Part shown: positions 2,359-11,429 of the stretch, piece after piece
Layout: each line of letters starts with the position of its first letter
Position numbering within the stretch: the stretch's first letter is position 1
Source: Actinomycetes bacterium
GTDB lineage: Bacteria; Actinomycetota; Actinomycetes; JAJZTN01
Assembly (NCBI GenBank): GCA_021848885.1
Contig: JAJZTN010000010.1
Coordinates: 1-32,539, forward strand
Length of the DNA: 32,539 bases
Direction of reading: 5' to 3'
Position numbers and translations under genes: made by a program
The notes under the pieces: generated by a model
The model's database searches: none
What the model was told of the DNA's origin: nothing
Seen by the model: only the letters and a program-made list of their open reading frames with translations

Positions 2359-3959
2359 TTGGCCCGCCGCCGGGCCGACCCGCGCCGCTCGCTGGGCCGG
2401 CGGACCGGCTCACCGGCCTGCACGGCGGCCAACCGGTGCGCGGCGCCGTAGCCGGCCAGTGCCTCCACCAGCATCTCCACGGTGGGAGCCGGGGCCAGCA
2501 CGTCGACGGACAGCCCGTGCTCCTCGGCGGTCTTGGCGGTCTGCGGGCCGATACAGGCCACAACCGTCGTGGCGTGCGGCTTGCCGGCGATGCCCACCAG
2601 GTTGCGCACCGTGGAGGAGGAGGTGAAAAGCACCGCGTCGAAGCCGCCGCCCTTGATCGCCTCACGGATGTGCGGGGCCGGCGGGGCGGCCCGCACGGTG
2701 CGGTAGGCGGTGACGTCGTCGGCCTCCCAGCCCAGCTCGACCAGGCCGGCCACGAGGGTCTCGGTTGCGATGTCGGCGCGGGGCAGGAAGACCCGGTTGA
2801 TCGGGTCGAGCACCTCGTCGTACGGGGGCCAGTCGGCCAGAAGGCCCCGGGCGGACTGCTCCTCACGTGGCACCAGGTCGGGCTCGACACCCCAGGACCG
2901 CAGCGCGGCGGCGGTCTTCTCCCCGACCGCGGCGACCTTGAGCCCGCTCAGCGCCCGGGCGTCCAGGCCGTACTCGACGAACTTCTCCTGCACCGCGCGC
3001 AGCGCGTTGACCGAGGTGAAGGCAACCCACTCGTAGCGGCCCTCGACCAGCCCGCGGATGGCCTTCTCCATCTGGTGCGGGGTGCGCGGCGGCTCCACCG
3101 CGATGGTGGGAACCTCGACGGGTACGGCGCCGTGCGAGCGCAGCAGCGCGGAGACCGGGGCGGCCTGCTCCTTGGTGCGCGGCACCAGCACCCGCCAGCC
3201 GAAGAGCGGCTTGGTCTCGAACCAGCTGAGCACCTCACGGTCGTTGACCACCTCCCCGACCACGGTCACCGCCGGGGGCTGCATCCCGGCCGCCTTGGCC
3301 TCGGCCGCGATGCCGGCGAGGGTGGACACGATGGTGCGCTGCCCGGTGGTGGTGCCGGCCCGGGTCATCGCGACCGGGGTGTCGGCCGGGCGCCCAGCCG
3401 ACACCAGTGTCTGGGCGATCTCGCCGATCCGCTCGACCGCGGACAGCAGCACCAGGGTGGCCCGCCCGGCGGCCAGCCCCGCCCAGTCGAGGTCGCCCTC
3501 GGCCGTGTTGACGACCCGCACCTCGCGGTGCTTGCTGGTGGCCAGCGGGATCCCGGCGTAGGCGGGCACGGCCGAGACGGCCGAGACCCCCGGGACGACC
3601 TCGAAGGGGATACCGGCCTTGGCCAGCGCGGCGGCCTCCTCCGCACCGGTGGAGAACAGGAAGGGGTCACCCTCCAGCAGCCGGACCACCCGGCGTCCCG
3701 ACCGGGCCGCGTTGAGCACGAGCTTGGCCCGCTGGGCGTGTGCGAGCGGAGCGCCGTCCTCGCCGATGGAGCCGTCGAGCACCTCGGTCCCCTCGCCACA
3801 CAACCCTTCGAGCAGCTCGCTGGGCTGCCGGTCGCATATCACCACGTCGGCAGCGCGCAGCAGCTCGACGGCTCGCACCGTCAGCAGGCCGGGGTCGCCC
3901 GGCCCGGCACCGACGAAGGCGACCGATCCCAGGGGCGTGGGGTTCTTCGGAGTGGTCAC
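2355..3959 (-). CDS. hemD: Fused uroporphyrinogen-III methyltransferase-like / uroporphyrinogen-III synthase
   Basis: The protein has 534 residues in two parts. Residues 12-245 form a SUMT/CobA-type tetrapyrrole methylase fold, with [11 protein letters not shown] at 17-27, [12 protein letters not shown] near 98-109, [19 protein letters not shown] near 122-140 and AGTTTGQRT near 201-209. From about 255 to 515 is HemD, which cyclises hydroxymethylbilane to uroporphyrinogen III with D-ring inversion; landmarks include [32 protein letters not shown] and [11 protein letters not shown]. This fused form is, from memory, the usual actinobacterial arrangement. The methylase part departs from the canonical KGGDPFxFGRG signature (here [11 protein letters not shown]), so its methyltransferase activity is uncertain. 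Its GTG start at 3959 overlaps the hemC stop by four bases, and its stop overlaps the hemB start. Confidence 0.93.
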
Positions 3960-4924
3960 GGAACTCGCTCCCGGTGCAGGGCGGCCAGGAGGTCCCCGGC
4001 GCCGTCATCGATCATCTGGTGGGCTAGCTTCTCGCCGAGCACCCGGGCGTCGTCGAGGGAGTCGACCCGAGCAGTGGCGGACCGACGGACGTGCTGGGTG
4101 CCGTCGGGGGTCACGGCCACGGCGCGCAGGTAGATCTCCCCCGCGCCACCGGGGGCGCCATCAGCCGGGTCCGGCTCGGCCAGCACGGCCAGCGCCCCGA
4201 CCGGGGCCGAGCAGCCGGCCTCCAGGGTGGCCAGCAGCGCCCGCTCGGCGGTCACGGCCAGCCGGCTGGCCCGGTCCTCGAGGAGGGCGGACAGCCGCGC
4301 GGCCAGCTCGACGTCCTCGGCTCGGCACTCCACCGCCAGAGCACCCTGCCCCGGGGCAGGCAGCATGAGCAGCGGGTCGAGCACCTCGGAGACCTCACCG
4401 AGCCGGTCCAGCCGGGCCAACCCGGCCCGGGCCAGCACGACCGCGTCAAGTTCGGCCTCACTGACCATCCGCAGCCGCGTGTCGACGTTGCCCCGCACCG
4501 CGAGCACCCGCAGGCCCAGCCCGAGGGCGCGCAGCTGGGCGGCCCGGCGGGGTGAGCCTGTGCCGACCCGGGCACCGCTCCCAAGCTCGCCCAGGGTGCG
4601 GCCCCCGGCGCTGACCAGCACGTCGCGTGGATCTTCGCGGGCTGGCACGGCGGCCAGCACCAGCCCCTCCGGCGCGGCCGTGGGCAGGTCCTTGAGGGAG
4701 TGCACGACCAGGTCCACCTCACCGGCCAGCAGCGCCTCGCGCAGCGCGTTGACGAAGACCCCTGTGCCGCCCAGGCTGGCCAGCGGTGCGGCCGAGGTGT
4801 CCCCGTACGTCGTGATGGTGCGCAGCTCGACCGGACGGCCCAGCCCGGCGGCCAGCGCGTCGCAGACCGTGCCGGACTGGGCGCGCGCCAGCGCGCTGCC
4901 CCGGGTCCCCAGCCGCAGCCTCAT
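3956..4924 (-). CDS. hemC: Hydroxymethylbilane synthase (porphobilinogen deaminase)
   Basis: The enzyme polymerises four porphobilinogens into hydroxymethylbilane using a covalent dipyrromethane primer. The 322-residue protein starts MRLRLGTRGSALA, as the family does. The catalytic aspartate is D79 in HSLKDLPT, the polypyrrole-binding arginines lie in GTGSPRRAAQL and RGNVDTRL, and the primer cysteine is C238 in LEAGCSAPVGA. PGQGALAVECR near 191-201 is also typical. The ATG at 4924 overlaps the hemA stop (ATGA) and the stop overlaps cobA/hemD, so it sits mid-operon. Residues 248-263 form a Gly/Pro/Asp-rich loop, presumably a surface insertion. Confidence 0.97.
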   Translation of the reverse strand: MRLRLGTRGSALARAQSGTVCDALAAGLGRPVELRTITTYGDTSAAPLASLGGTGVFVNALREALLAGEVDLVVHSLKDLPTAAPEGLVLAAVPAREDPRDVLVSAGGRTLGELGSGARVGTGSPRRAAQLRALGLGLRVLAVRGNVDTRLRMVSEAELDAVVLARAGLARLDRLGEVSEVLDPLLMLPAPGQGALAVECRAEDVELAARLSALLEDRASRLAVTAERALLATLEAGCSAPVGALAVLAEPDPADGAPGGAGEIYLRAVAVTPDGTQHVRRSATARVDSLDDARVLGEKLAHQMIDDGAGDLLAALHRERVP

Positions 4925-6228
4925 GCCAGCTCCCCGTCCAGCTCCGGGCGGGTGACGGCCTCGACCCGCACCGGGTCCAGGTCGAACAGCTCGCGCAGGG
5001 CCTGGGCGTAACCCTGTCCGCCGGGCTCGCCGGCGAGTTGCTTGACCCGCACGGTGGGGGCGTGCAGCAGCTTGTCCACCACCCGGTGCACCGCCTGGCT
5101 GACCTCCTCGCGGGTGTGTTCGTCCATGCTCGGCAGGCGACCGGCCAGCCGGGTCAGCTCAGCGTCGACGACCTGCTCGGCCATGGCCCGCAACGCCACG
5201 ACGGTCGGGGCGACCGCGCTCGCACGCAGCCAGCCGAGGAAGCCGGCCACCTCCTCGGTGACGATCGCCTTGACCGCCTCGACGTCGGCGGCCCGCTCGT
5301 CACCGGCCAGCATCCGGCCCAGCCCGGCCAGGTCGAGCAGGCGCACCCCGCTCAGCTCGGCGATGTCCGGGTCGATGTCACGGGGCAGGGCCAGGTCGAG
5401 GAAGAACTGCGGCCGCGGCCCGCGCACGGCGCGGGCACGGGTCACCGCGGGTGCGGTGACCAACAGGGCCAGCGCCCCGGTGCAGGAGAGCACCAGGTCA
5501 GCACCGGGCAGCTCCTCCTCCAGCTGCTCCAGCCGGATCGCCCGCCCACCCAGCCGGGCGGCCAGGTCGACCCCGCGCTCGAAGGTGCGGTTGGCCACCA
5601 CGAGCTCGCCGATGCCCCCGCGAACCAGGGTCGTGGCGGCCAGCGCGCTCATCGACCCGGCGCCCACCACCAGCGCGCTACGACCGGACAGGTCCCCCAG
5701 CGACCGCCCGGCGTGCTCCAGCCCGACCGAGACGAGGCTGGCCCCGGCCCGGTCGATATCGGTGTCGGCGTGCACCCGCTTGCCGACCCGCAGCGCCTGC
5801 TGGAACGCCTCGTTGAGCAACCGGCCGGCGGCCCCGGCCTCCTGCGCCGCACGCAGTGCGGTGCGCACCTGGCCGAGGATCTGCCCCTCGCCGACCACCA
5901 TGGAGTCCAGGCCGCTGGCCACCGAGAACAGGTGGGCGACCGCGCGGTCCTCGTAGTGCACGTACAGATGCGCGGTGAGCTCGTCGTGGGCCACGCCGGT
6001 GTGGTCGGCCAGCAGCGAGGTGATCTCGGCGACTCCGGCGTGGAACTTGGCAGCATCGGCGTAGACCTCGACCCGGTTGCAGGTCGAGACCACCACGGCC
6101 TCCCCGATGTGGTCGGCGCTGGCCACGTCCGCGACGAGCTTGCCGACATGCTCGGGGCCAAGCGAAGTGCGCTCGAGAAGCTCCACCGGGGCGGAGCGGT
6201 GCGACAGACCGACGACGAGCAGGCTCAT
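4921..6228 (-). CDS. hemA: Glutamyl-tRNA reductase
   Basis: This NADPH enzyme reduces glutamyl-tRNA(Glu) to glutamate-1-semialdehyde and is the committed step of the C5 pathway. The start is the ATG at 6228, which forms an ATGA overlap with the rex stop. Further upstream in-frame sequence exists but lies inside rex and is not conserved-looking. The protein is 435 residues. The catalytic cysteine is C50 in VVVSTCNRVEVYAD; GEGQILGQVRTAL near 113-125 and the nucleotide-binding LVVGAGSMSALAA near 187-199 follow, with the dimerisation helices at the C-terminus. HemL at the window edge takes its product, so both ALA-forming steps are encoded here. Confidence 0.97.
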   Translation of the reverse strand: MSLLVVGLSHRSAPVELLERTSLGPEHVGKLVADVASADHIGEAVVVSTCNRVEVYADAAKFHAGVAEITSLLADHTGVAHDELTAHLYVHYEDRAVAHLFSVASGLDSMVVGEGQILGQVRTALRAAQEAGAAGRLLNEAFQQALRVGKRVHADTDIDRAGASLVSVGLEHAGRSLGDLSGRSALVVGAGSMSALAATTLVRGGIGELVVANRTFERGVDLAARLGGRAIRLEQLEEELPGADLVLSCTGALALLVTAPAVTRARAVRGPRPQFFLDLALPRDIDPDIAELSGVRLLDLAGLGRMLAGDERAADVEAVKAIVTEEVAGFLGWLRASAVAPTVVALRAMAEQVVDAELTRLAGRLPSMDEHTREEVSQAVHRVVDKLLHAPTVRVKQLAGEPGGQGYAQALRELFDLDPVRVEAVTRPELDGELA

Positions 6229-8363: not shown

Positions 8364-8370
8364 CGTGACC

Positions 8371-9288
8371 ATGGCACGGGCCTCCCGCAGCCGCGGACCC
8401 GCAGCGGAACAGACCGCAGCTCATGACCCCGTCCCGCAAGCTGAGCTGGGCACGCACCTTGCCGGCCCGCCGCAGCAAGCCGGCGCGGAGGTCGGCCCGA
8501 CGGGCCCGCTCGAACGGCAGCGTGGGTCCGCGGCCTTCTTCGACGTGGACAACACGCTGCTGCGCGGGGCCTCGATCTTCCACCTGGCCCGCGGGCTGTA
8601 CCGCCGGCACTTCTTCGCCTCCCGCGACCTTGCCCGCTTCGCCTGGCAGCAGGTGCGTTTCCGGGTGGTGGGCAGGGAGGATCCCGGCCACATGGACGCC
8701 GCCCGCGAGGCGGCGTTGACCTTCGTCAAAGGCCACCGGGTCGAGGAGCTGACCAGCCTCGGCGAGGAGATCTTCGACGAGATCATGGCAGCCAAGATCT
8801 GGCCGGGGACCCGGGCGCTGGCCCGGATGCACCTCGACGCCGGCCAGCAGGTCTGGCTGGTCACCGCCACACCGGTCGAGATCGCCACAGTGATCGCCGA
8901 GCGGCTCGAGCTCACCGGCGCCCTGGGCACCGTGTCGGAGACCGTCGAGGGGGTCTACACCGGCCGCCTGGTCAGCGAGCCGCTGCACGGGCCGGCCAAG
9001 GCCGAGGCGGTGGCCGCACTGGCCGCCAGGCAGGGTCTGGACCTGGCCCGCTGCTCGGCCTACTCCGACTCCGCCAACGACATCCCCATGCTGTCGCTGG
9101 TCGGGGACCCGTGCGCGGTCAACCCCGACGCGCGGTTGCGCGCGCACGCCAAGCGCAGCGGCTGGCGGATCCGGGACTACCGCCGGGCTCGGCGGGCCGC
9201 ACGGATCGGAGTGCCCACGGCCGCGGGGGTGGGCGCGGCCGCCGGTGCCGCGGTCGCGGCCGTGGCGATGCGCCGGCGCTCACGCTGA
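8371..9288 (+). CDS. HAD-IB family phosphatase (SerB1-like)
   Basis: This is a 305-residue haloacid-dehalogenase phosphohydrolase of the phosphoserine-phosphatase-like subfamily. All four HAD motifs are present: AFFDVDNTLL (nucleophile D58, acid D60), VTATP (motif II Thr), GPAKAEAV (motif III Lys) and SDSANDIPML (motif IV Asp pair). A helical cap lies between motifs I and II. The first 50 residues are Ala/Pro/Gln-rich and probably disordered. The last 25 residues are Ala-rich and end MRRRSR, perhaps membrane-associating. Position next to the acyltransferase/SDR/bS22 block matches mycobacterial serB1 (Rv0505c) as I recall. The substrate is unproven: small phosphoesters or lysophospholipid phosphates are possible. 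It is followed 26 bp later by the DUF5667 gene. Confidence 0.9.
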   Translation: MARASRSRGPAAEQTAAHDPVPQAELGTHLAGPPQQAGAEVGPTGPLERQRGSAAFFDVDNTLLRGASIFHLARGLYRRHFFASRDLARFAWQQVRFRVVGREDPGHMDAAREAALTFVKGHRVEELTSLGEEIFDEIMAAKIWPGTRALARMHLDAGQQVWLVTATPVEIATVIAERLELTGALGTVSETVEGVYTGRLVSEPLHGPAKAEAVAALAARQGLDLARCSAYSDSANDIPMLSLVGDPCAVNPDARLRAHAKRSGWRIRDYRRARRAARIGVPTAAGVGAAAGAAVAAVAMRRRSR

Positions 9289-9314
9289 GCCGCCCCAACC
9301 GCGAGGAGCAGCAG

Positions 9315-9989
9315 GTGCCCAGCCCCGACCACGACACCGCCACGGTGCCGCACAGTCAGCCCGTGCGAGCCCACCGGGCACCCAGGCGCCGCCGGCGACC
9401 CGGCCGGGGCACCACGTGGGTCAGCCTCGGGGTGCTGGTCGCGCTGGTGGCCGCGTCCATCGGCACCGGGCTGCTGGCCATGGGGTCACTACCGGGCCAG
9501 CGGCTCTACGGGCTCAAGCTCGACCTGCAACGCTGGAGCCTGGGCCTGACCCGCAGCGAGTCCGCGCACGGGCAACGGCTGCTCGGACAAGCCTCCGATC
9601 GGCTCCTCGAGGTGGACCGGCTGCTGGCCGAGCCCTCGTCGGGCACCCGCGACCGGCTGGTCGCGATCACCTACGGGCGGGCCCAGACCGAGCTGCTCGA
9701 CGCGATAGCCGAGCTGGAGGGCGCCTATCACGACCACCGGGACGGCATCGCGTTGCGCTCGATGGACGAGGCGCTGCCGACCGTGGCGGTCAGGCTCGCG
9801 GCTGTGCGCGCCGGGCTGGATGCCGTGCAGGCGGGGCAGGCCGGCGGGCTGCGCGATCAGGTGCTGGCGCTTCGTGCTCGGGTGCACACGATCCTGGTCA
9901 CCTGTGGGCTGCCCTGCGACACGGTCACCCCCAGCCCGACCCCCTCGCCGTACCCGACGATCGGGGTGCCCACCCTGCCCGGTGGCTGA
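9315..9989 (+). CDS. DUF5667 / RsbN-like single-pass membrane protein, no sigma partner
   Basis: The 224-residue protein starts at the GTG at 9315, behind GAGGAG six bases upstream. Residues 1-34 are short, basic and cytoplasmic (APRRRRRPGRG). Residues 35-57 are one membrane span. Residues 58-65 (SLPGQRLY) begin the DUF5667-like extracellular helical domain, about 60-185. The tail is Pro/Thr/Ser-rich with two cysteines (TCGLPC). In Streptomyces, as I recall, the equivalent position holds bldN, an ECF sigma gene, followed by rsbN, its anti-sigma factor with a longer cytoplasmic sigma-binding domain. Here the HAD gene runs straight into this gene with a 26-bp gap, so no sigma gene is present, and the cytoplasmic part looks too short to bind one. 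The function is therefore unknown; it may be a relic or have an envelope role. Confidence 0.75.
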   Translation: MPSPDHDTATVPHSQPVRAHRAPRRRRRPGRGTTWVSLGVLVALVAASIGTGLLAMGSLPGQRLYGLKLDLQRWSLGLTRSESAHGQRLLGQASDRLLEVDRLLAEPSSGTRDRLVAITYGRAQTELLDAIAELEGAYHDHRDGIALRSMDEALPTVAVRLAAVRAGLDAVQAGQAGGLRDQVLALRARVHTILVTCGLPCDTVTPSPTPSPYPTIGVPTLPGG

Positions 9990-10040: not shown

Positions 10041-11429
10041 TCAGAAGAAGACCGACCGGCGGGCCATCAGCAACGAGTAGAGCGTGTGCTGGATCGTCTC
10101 GCGAACCCGGTCGGTGAGGTCGAAGACCAGCATCGGGTCCTCGGCGGCACCGTCGGGCAGGTCATGGGTCGGGATGGGCTCGGCGAACTCGATGACCCAC
10201 TTGGACGGTAGGGGCACCAGGCCGAGCACGCCCAGCCACGGGAACAGCGGGGTGACCGGGAGGTAGGGCAGCCCCAACAGCCGGGCCAGGGTCTTCAGGT
10301 TGCCGATCATCGGGTAGATCTCCTCGGCTCCGACGATCGCCGCCGGGACGATCGGCACGCCGGTGCGCAACGCCGCTGAGACGAACCCGCCGCGACCGAA
10401 GCGCTGCAGCTTGTAACGCTCGACGAACGGCTTGCCCAGTCCCTTGAAGCCTTCCGGCCACACCCCGACGACCTCGCCCCGGGCCAGCAGCCGCTCGGCG
10501 TCCTCGTTGCAGGCCAGCGTCGAACCGCCCTTGCGGGCGACCTCGCCCAGGAACGGGGTCTGGAAGAGCAGGTCGGCGCCGAGGGGACGCAAGAGCCGGT
10601 GCTCAGGGTGCTCGTCATGCACTGCCAGCTGGGTCATGAACGCATCGAGCGGCAGGGTGCCGGAATGGTTGGCCACGACCAGGGCACCACCCTCGGCGGG
10701 CACGTTCGTCACCCCGCGCACCTCTACACGGAACCAGGAGCGGTACAGCGGTCGCCCGAGTGCGAGCAGCACGTGCTGGGCCAGGTCCGCGTCGTAGCCG
10801 AAGTCGTCGACCTCGTACTGCCCAGTCAGCCGTCGGCGCAGGAAGGCCAGCATCTCGGCTGCCCGGGTGTCCCAGTCGGGGCCCAGCGACGAGGATGCCA
10901 GCCGGGCCAGCAGCGCCGCGATGGCCTCGCCTGCCTCGACCAGGTCCGGCCCGTCAGGCCCGGCGGGCTGGCTCCCACCGTCGAGTACGGCGAAGGACCC
11001 CGGCGGACCGACCGGGCCTGCCTCGGCTGGCCGCCCGGACTTGCGGCCCGCGGACCGGCCCGCACCGGCGGGAACGGCGCCCGGGCCGCTGGGAACCGGC
11101 CGCAGCCGCGGCGGCACCGACGGCGGAACCGACGGCGGAACCGACGGTGTCACCGCGGCGGAGCTGCGCGGCACCGACGGCGGAACCGATGGCGCCACCG
11201 CGGCGGCGGAGCTGTGCGGCTCGAGCTCGGCCTGCCCGACCTCGCTTATCAGCGGCGTCGGGCGACGACGTCTGCGCTCCCGCTCGCCACTGGCCCGATC
11301 CGCGGCCGCGGACACGGCGGCGGGCTGTCCACCCCGGCCTGCGCTGGGCCGTCCGGTGGACCGCAGGGACCGCGCGGGTGCTGCCGGTGGCCCGGGCGGC
11401 CCCGGCTGCCCGGGCTCTCGCTCAGCCAA
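10041..11429 (-). CDS. Lysophospholipid acyltransferase (PlsC family, Rv0502-like)
   Basis: The 462-residue protein has two parts. Residues 1-165 are low-complexity, Pro/Ser/Ala/Arg-rich and probably disordered. The catalytic domain begins about residue 205. Active-site elements are ANHSGTLPLD (H255, D262) and VWPEGFKGLG near 324-332, the substrate-phosphate Glu-Gly box; VPIVPAAIVGAEE follows. The His-to-Asp spacing is six residues, not the four of the textbook HX4D box. It probably acylates a glycerophosphate- or mannose-type acceptor at the inner membrane face. The TTG start at 11429 overlaps the upstream SDR gene's stop by eight bases; this start is uncertain because much of the N-terminus is unconserved-looking. 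SDR and acyltransferase are adjacent in Mycobacterium too (Rv0501-Rv0502). Confidence 0.87.
   Translation of the reverse strand: MAEREPGQPGPPGPPAAPARSLRSTGRPSAGRGGQPAAVSAAADRASGERERRRRRPTPLISEVGQAELEPHSSAAAVAPSVPPSVPRSSAAVTPSVPPSVPPSVPPRLRPVPSGPGAVPAGAGRSAGRKSGRPAEAGPVGPPGSFAVLDGGSQPAGPDGPDLVEAGEAIAALLARLASSSLGPDWDTRAAEMLAFLRRRLTGQYEVDDFGYDADLAQHVLLALGRPLYRSWFRVEVRGVTNVPAEGGALVVANHSGTLPLDAFMTQLAVHDEHPEHRLLRPLGADLLFQTPFLGEVARKGGSTLACNEDAERLLARGEVVGVWPEGFKGLGKPFVERYKLQRFGRGGFVSAALRTGVPIVPAAIVGAEEIYPMIGNLKTLARLLGLPYLPVTPLFPWLGVLGLVPLPSKWVIEFAEPIPTHDLPDGAAEDPMLVFDLTDRVRETIQHTLYSLLMARRSVFF
11110..11205. repeat. 12-bp coding repeats in the acyltransferase N-terminal region
   Basis: Units of GGCGGAACCGAC and close variants repeat from 11110 to about 11157. 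A related block from about 11168 repeats the same order and again ends in a CACCGCGGCGGAGCTG-like sequence. On the coding strand they give Ser-Val-Pro-Pro repeats (residues about 80-107). The unit is a multiple of three and keeps the frame, so copy number can vary without breaking the gene. Confidence 0.6.

Follow-up and report, generated by a model that had tools for sequence, protein, structure and literature searches.

Our main finding is that the protein encoded at positions 9315 to 9989 of the window, by which we mean the whole 32,539-nucleotide stretch of actinomycete DNA under analysis, is most probably a vestigial, still-translated remnant of an anti-sigma factor. An ancestral rsbN gene would have left its 3' half here once bldN, the rsbN promoter and the sigma-binding part had been lost; in many actinobacteria, bldN and rsbN encode a switch protein of the sporulation type and its inhibitor in the membrane. 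We assign this reading a probability of roughly 0.6. That the protein is orthologous to RsbN is well supported, and the truncation itself is shown by comparison with relatives; what the remaining part does, if anything, is where the readings diverge.

The truncated gene and its address

Features of the locus are collected in Table 1. The gene opens with a GTG at 9315 and closes with a stop codon at 9987-9989, and the initial annotation, which had described a short basic cytoplasmic tail, one membrane span and an outer DUF5667-like domain just past a HAD-family gene, is borne out by sequence, hydropathy and profile. The distance from the HAD stop (9288) to the start is 26 bp, and the cytoplasmic residues (1-34) include eight arginines, no lysine and two acidic residues; by hydropathy the span that follows lies at about 36-56. 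Third-position G+C is 0.906 in the outer part, 0.909 in the HAD gene and 0.900 in the acyltransferase gene.

Table 1. Coordinates of the features at the truncated rsbN locus
Feature	Position	Strand	Basis
Hydrolase of the HAD-IB family; immediately precedes bldN in relatives	8365..9288	+	TIGR01490 E 1.5e-50; synteny
26-bp junction; in relatives this interval holds bldN, the promoter of rsbN and its 5' half	9289..9314	+	comparison
GAGGAG, Shine-Dalgarno-like, 6 nt 5' of the GTG start	9303..9308	+	sequence
RsbN orthologue, truncated; 224 codons and a stop	9315..9989	+	ORF, Pfam, homologue search, profile built without the window protein
34-residue basic cytoplasmic N-terminus without sigma-binding domain	9315..9416	+	composition; no sigma-binding profile match
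Single membrane span, residues about 36-55	9420..9479	+	hydropathy 2.24
Helical domain outside the membrane; residues 57-109 match DUF5667, and five helices are predicted at 62-196	9483..9902	+	Pfam, AlphaFold2, profile built without the window protein
CGLPC cysteine pair ending the helical domain	9903..9917	+	sequence and relatives
Short Pro/Thr/Ser tail, 23 residues	9918..9986	+	sequence
PlsC-type acyltransferase closing the conserved locus	10041..11429	-	PF01553 E 7.2e-17; conserved in relatives

The relationship to RsbN does not depend on Pfam, whose DUF5667 model (PF18915) matches residues 57-109 with 23.6 bits (E 7.1e-5), below its gathering cut-off of 27 bits. An outer-domain profile built from 21 relatives, from which the window protein was left out, matches residues 38-212 with E 1.7e-28, the best score among 2000 shuffles being E 0.76; this profile supersedes an earlier one (A1) that contained the window protein as a row and therefore gave an inflated E of 2.5e-44. 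All five invariant residues of the family (P, G, Y, K and A) are present. Of 41 relatives, 14 have a C-x(2-4)-C pair in the position corresponding to CGLPC, too few for it to be retained as a defining RsbN motif, and the tail that follows it measures 87 to 177 residues in those 14, compared with 23 here.

With an E-value threshold of 0.001, the window protein finds matches in 22 of 60 relatives and in 53 of 148 genomes of the class. We examined 41 homologous loci, 23 from the search of the 60 relatives and 18 from the class search, further weak class matches lying outside this set. In 40 of the 41, the gene immediately upstream encodes a BldN-type ECF factor, with 53 to 100% identity to the BldN of locus L018 (itself among the 41). 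The initial annotation had recognized this as the place of bldN and rsbN, and the comparison agrees: the conserved address formed by HAD, acyltransferase, epimerase and HTH genes is present in the window, and at L142, in a relative of group f8, the order is CAP, HAD, bldN, rsbN, followed by acyltransferase, epimerase and HTH on the opposite strand, that is, the order of the window with bldN added. Apart from the window, the only locus without an adjacent upstream bldN in this set of 41 is L014, in a genome of group f17, whose members we presume to be Frankia-like. The bldN-rsbN pair of G022, the genome with the RsbN closest to that of the window, sits in a different gene context. By eye, the low-complexity N-terminal part of the acyltransferase gene contains a short tandem repeat of the GGAACCGACGGC type (window 11100-11200).

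A survey of 393 genomes at least 90% complete, in which a BldN match meant E 1e-38 or better and the lists were compared by hand, places the case in a wider frame. The outer-domain profile matched in 150 genomes and BldN in 148; both were found in 143, the outer domain only in seven and BldN only in five. Those seven are the genome of the window and six weak matches (E 5.4e-17 to 3.6e-4), so that among the 393 genomes a strong outer-domain match lacking BldN is confined to that of the window. Among the 150 outer-domain matches listed, 126 have a co-directional BldN lying 294 to 900 bp upstream (median 429). The remaining 24 comprise the genome of the window, unlinked f17 genes, f10 paralogues, a split contig and two more loci (L152 and L153), at which BldN proved adjacent to RsbN when the DNA was read. 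Four f17 loci (L150, L151, L154 and L156) encode RsbN-like proteins that possess the N-terminal part and are unlinked from bldN, while in f10 a second RsbN-like gene lies beside an ECF gene only 31-35% identical to BldN (L148 and L149), forming a paralogous pair. According to a passage of PMC4255298, nearly all bldN genes have rsbN as a neighbour. No close relative sharing the truncation was found among the 60 relatives, which include no other member of the order, or in a single-protein scan of named genomes.

Anchoring the comparison on the HAD gene instead, we examined the best 80 named loci of a HAD scan, mostly from Streptomycetaceae and Rhodococcus. BldN is present in 65 of these and accompanied by the RsbN outer domain in 63; the 15 without BldN are ten Rhodococcus loci, one Frankiaceae metagenome-assembled genome (L082) and four contigs breaking off shortly past the HAD gene. 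The ten Rhodococcus loci resemble the window in that bldN is gone while the HAD and acyltransferase genes, there facing each other, are kept; unlike the window, they retain no remnant of RsbN.

What is missing between the HAD gene and the membrane span

The loss of both the sigma gene and the sigma-binding region, which the initial annotation had proposed, was confirmed, that of the sigma gene at the scale of the genome. The locus contains no bldN, and the best BldN match anywhere in the genome (97.7% complete), an ECF gene on contig C52, has 30% identity; partial weak matches reach 34% and cover less than half of the query. As for the sigma-binding region, residues 1-102 of the L018 RsbN match chain D of PDB 6dxo (91 residues, RsbN 1-91), which is the sigma-binding domain. 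A profile made from RsbN N-terminal parts, trained on one half of the relatives and tested on the other, recovered 20 of 21 and 20 of 20 (40/41 together), and it has no match in the window protein or in the six frames of positions 8801-9500. A search of the PDB with the window protein returned a sole match, an unrelated enzyme at E 0.46. The way in which RsbN holds sigma-BldN is treated in passages of PMC8103513 and PMC7406223; chain D of 6dxo is labelled BldN in the database although it is RsbN by sequence, and the two names are swapped in a passage of PMC7406223.

The promoter has disappeared as well. CGTAAC-N16/17-CGTT, which we took to be the BldN promoter consensus and then tested against the loci, occurs 5' of rsbN in 31 of 40 relatives and in one of 2000 shuffles, its exact form being missing in nine of the 40 true bldN-rsbN loci. 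It occurs nowhere in the 32.5-kb window, and neither CGTAAC nor CGTT is found within 9250-9420. A stricter form, CGTAAC-N15/16-TCGTT, appears once in the whole genome of the window and 36 times in ten relatives (one to eight times each), in nine of which it precedes rsbN; the reversed motif, used as a control, gave zero and four occurrences, respectively. A passage of PMC4255298 attributes to the rsbN of S. venezuelae a BldN-dependent promoter of its own.

The three losses are contiguous, and the distance from the HAD stop to the membrane span is 132 bp in the window versus 1169 (L141), 1269 (L142), 1376 (L143) and 1308 bp (L145) in relatives, which makes a single deletion the simplest account. 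The 'coordinated' loss suggested by the initial annotation thus stands insofar as both elements are gone, and is better worded as follows: one contiguous deletion probably took bldN, the rsbN promoter and the sigma-binding codons together. Comparison with relatives puts the stretch lost from between the HAD gene and the span of RsbN at about 1.0-1.25 kb. The breakpoints of the deletion are not visible in any close relative examined. What remained of rsbN would then have been re-started at the GTG behind the Shine-Dalgarno-like site, and the gene is probably now the last of the HAD transcription unit. The protein contains no known sigma-binding region, and BldN, the partner of such a region, is missing; it cannot therefore act in the manner of RsbN.

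Relic or surface module

The remaining outer domain evolves faster than the neighbouring genes. Its values to Streptomyces are 0.185 for the window and 0.294 for f8, unlike the near-even pairs obtained in the same order for HAD (0.706 and 0.722), BldM (0.723 and 0.704) and acyltransferase (0.704 and 0.715). In relative-rate tests with Streptomyces outgroups, 28.3 changes fell on the window only and 9.3 on f8 only (20 triplets; p from 1e-5 to 0.09, median 0.002), with the proviso that the triplets share sequences and so are non-independent, and that the test assumes a grouping of f8 with the window that is not firm. The imbalance is weaker with other outgroups (26.3 versus 16.4 changes, 28 triplets, median p 0.12), and little or none is seen in the controls, namely HAD, BldM, acyltransferase and G022 in place of the window. 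The HAD tree leaves the place of the window open, f8 being nearest by path; the outer-domain tree pairs the window with G022 as its sister (SH-aLRT 90), on a branch of 2.51 versus 0.48 for G022. A long outer-domain branch (2.09) is also found in G047, which has an intact bldN-rsbN pair and a long HAD branch too. Of the 29 columns that 70% or more of the other rows conserve, the window protein keeps 18, the third lowest count of 22 rows, with fewer kept in only two of the 21 others.

The main competitor of the relic reading holds that the outer domain already had an extracellular role of its own in RsbN and was kept for it, as a membrane-anchored helical module made together with the HAD enzyme, perhaps with a disulphide at CGLPC. 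We consider this possible but doubtful, and slightly more doubtful still the specific picture of a sensory half that was freed from its sigma factor and persists at the surface as an independent module, cysteine pair included, co-expressed with the HAD enzyme. Several features that speak against a relic speak for such a role: the intact 224-codon frame, the Shine-Dalgarno-like site, normal third-position composition, and retention of the invariant residues and the cysteine pair. The structural prediction may be counted with them, since AlphaFold2 (39 alignment rows; mean pLDDT 70.9) places five helices at residues 62-196, with pLDDT of about 84-91 at residues 81-170 and below 50 around the membrane span.

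The openness of the frame decides nothing between relic and function, because neutral survival is fairly frequent at this G+C: under simulated neutral substitution, the frame stays open in 66% of cases at 19 changes and in 13% at 100 of 166. Against an extracellular role stand the fast divergence, the poor retention of conserved columns accompanied by a shortened C-terminal tail, and the Rhodococcus loci, where the outer domain has been dispensable. Structure prediction, which the initial annotation had suggested for residues 58-185, gave a helical outer domain, and fold comparison returned generic matches only: the best Foldseek hit (E 0.069) is a generic helical bundle, and the best VIA-align hit (the STAT5 core, Z 11.5) is unremarkable for helical bundles by the tool's own note. 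The independent role envisaged by the initial annotation is therefore not supported so far, a second ECF/anti-sigma pair of the same genome being broken as well (see below), and the evidence leans towards a relic, short of proof. Most likely, the protein is a relic with a still-open frame, its constraint relaxed or shifted, and belongs to a lineage with eroding ECF/anti-sigma modules; its predicted topology has the basic tail inside the cell and the helical bundle outside.

The rest of the genome and the meaning of the locus

Despite the loss of BldN, a BldM-type response regulator is kept (L166, G000:C38:32655-33239), with 72-76% identity to its counterparts in f8 and Streptomyces; we name it presumptively, from its place beside an ECF gene and guaB. 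A BldN-type site within 1.5 kb 5' of bldM is present in Streptomyces and in none of five f8 genes, and retention of BldM thus does not require BldN. The ECF gene beside bldM and guaB, which we take to be of the ShbA type from its place next to guaB, lacks the whole of sigma region 2 (L164, G000:C38:29500-35941, at about 3700-5000), tblastn covering only ShbA residues 82-170. Its anti-sigma gene is split into a sigma-binding-like open reading frame, a frame break and an outer-domain remnant, without a membrane span. Both genes of the ShbA-type pair are intact at four f8 loci (L167, L168, L169 and L171), and no ShbA-type gene was found at the fifth, L170. The chaplin family (PF03777) has no match in the genome, and the control genomes likewise all fell below the cut-off, which gives this absence little weight. 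BldM is a known target of BldN in Streptomyces, according to a passage of PMC4255298.

The absent segments of this second locus are what an assembly artefact has in its favour, namely that the 233-contig assembly skipped about 1.1 kb present in the organism. We judge this improbable: the locus lies on a single 32.5-kb contig, its junction has a well-placed Shine-Dalgarno-like site, an open frame and normal codon bias, bldN is on no other contig, and fast evolution of the outer domain would be unexpected were RsbN intact. Far less probable is a sigma factor encoded at another place, whether in the 2.3% of the genome that is missing or as a diverged ECF such as that of C52, and regulated through another part of the protein. 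Completeness is indeed 97.72% rather than 100%, and bldN and rsbN are unlinked in the f17 genomes, but the RsbN-like proteins there keep, by eye, the N-terminal part that the window protein lacks. The C52 gene, considered as a BldN candidate, was rejected as ShbA-like (47% identity to ShbA versus 30% to BldN); it forms an intact pair with its own anti-sigma-like neighbour, and the single promoter-like site genome-wide, compared with one to eight in ten relatives, also counts against this reading. Hardly credible at all is an unrelated membrane protein that merely resembles RsbN, for although the Pfam score is under its cut-off, the profile made without the window largely refutes it, and the invariant residues and the shared HAD-acyltransferase address also speak against it.

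Compared with Streptomyces RsbN (class III anti-sigma domain, PDB 6dxo), the preferred anti-sigma remnant shares the address, the single span, the outer DUF5667 helices and the invariant residues, but lacks the sigma-binding domain, a bldN gene either adjacent or elsewhere in the genome, and the BldN-type promoter, and its tail is shorter. The C38 pair is likewise an ECF/anti-sigma module that has lost segments while keeping a conserved address, with the difference that at C38 it is sigma region 2 that was lost, while the anti-sigma gene is frame-broken and deprived of its span. To our knowledge, no signal sensed by RsbN is known, and no paper found in our literature search names DUF5667. The absence of the bldN module from simple actinobacteria is discussed in a passage of PMC4255298.

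The locus would capture the bldN module partway through its loss, in a genome that retains BldM after BldN has gone. It also presents the outer domain naturally detached from its sigma factor, and hence offers a clean test of that domain's own function; were it a stand-alone module after all, RsbN outer domains would act outside the cell independently of BldN.
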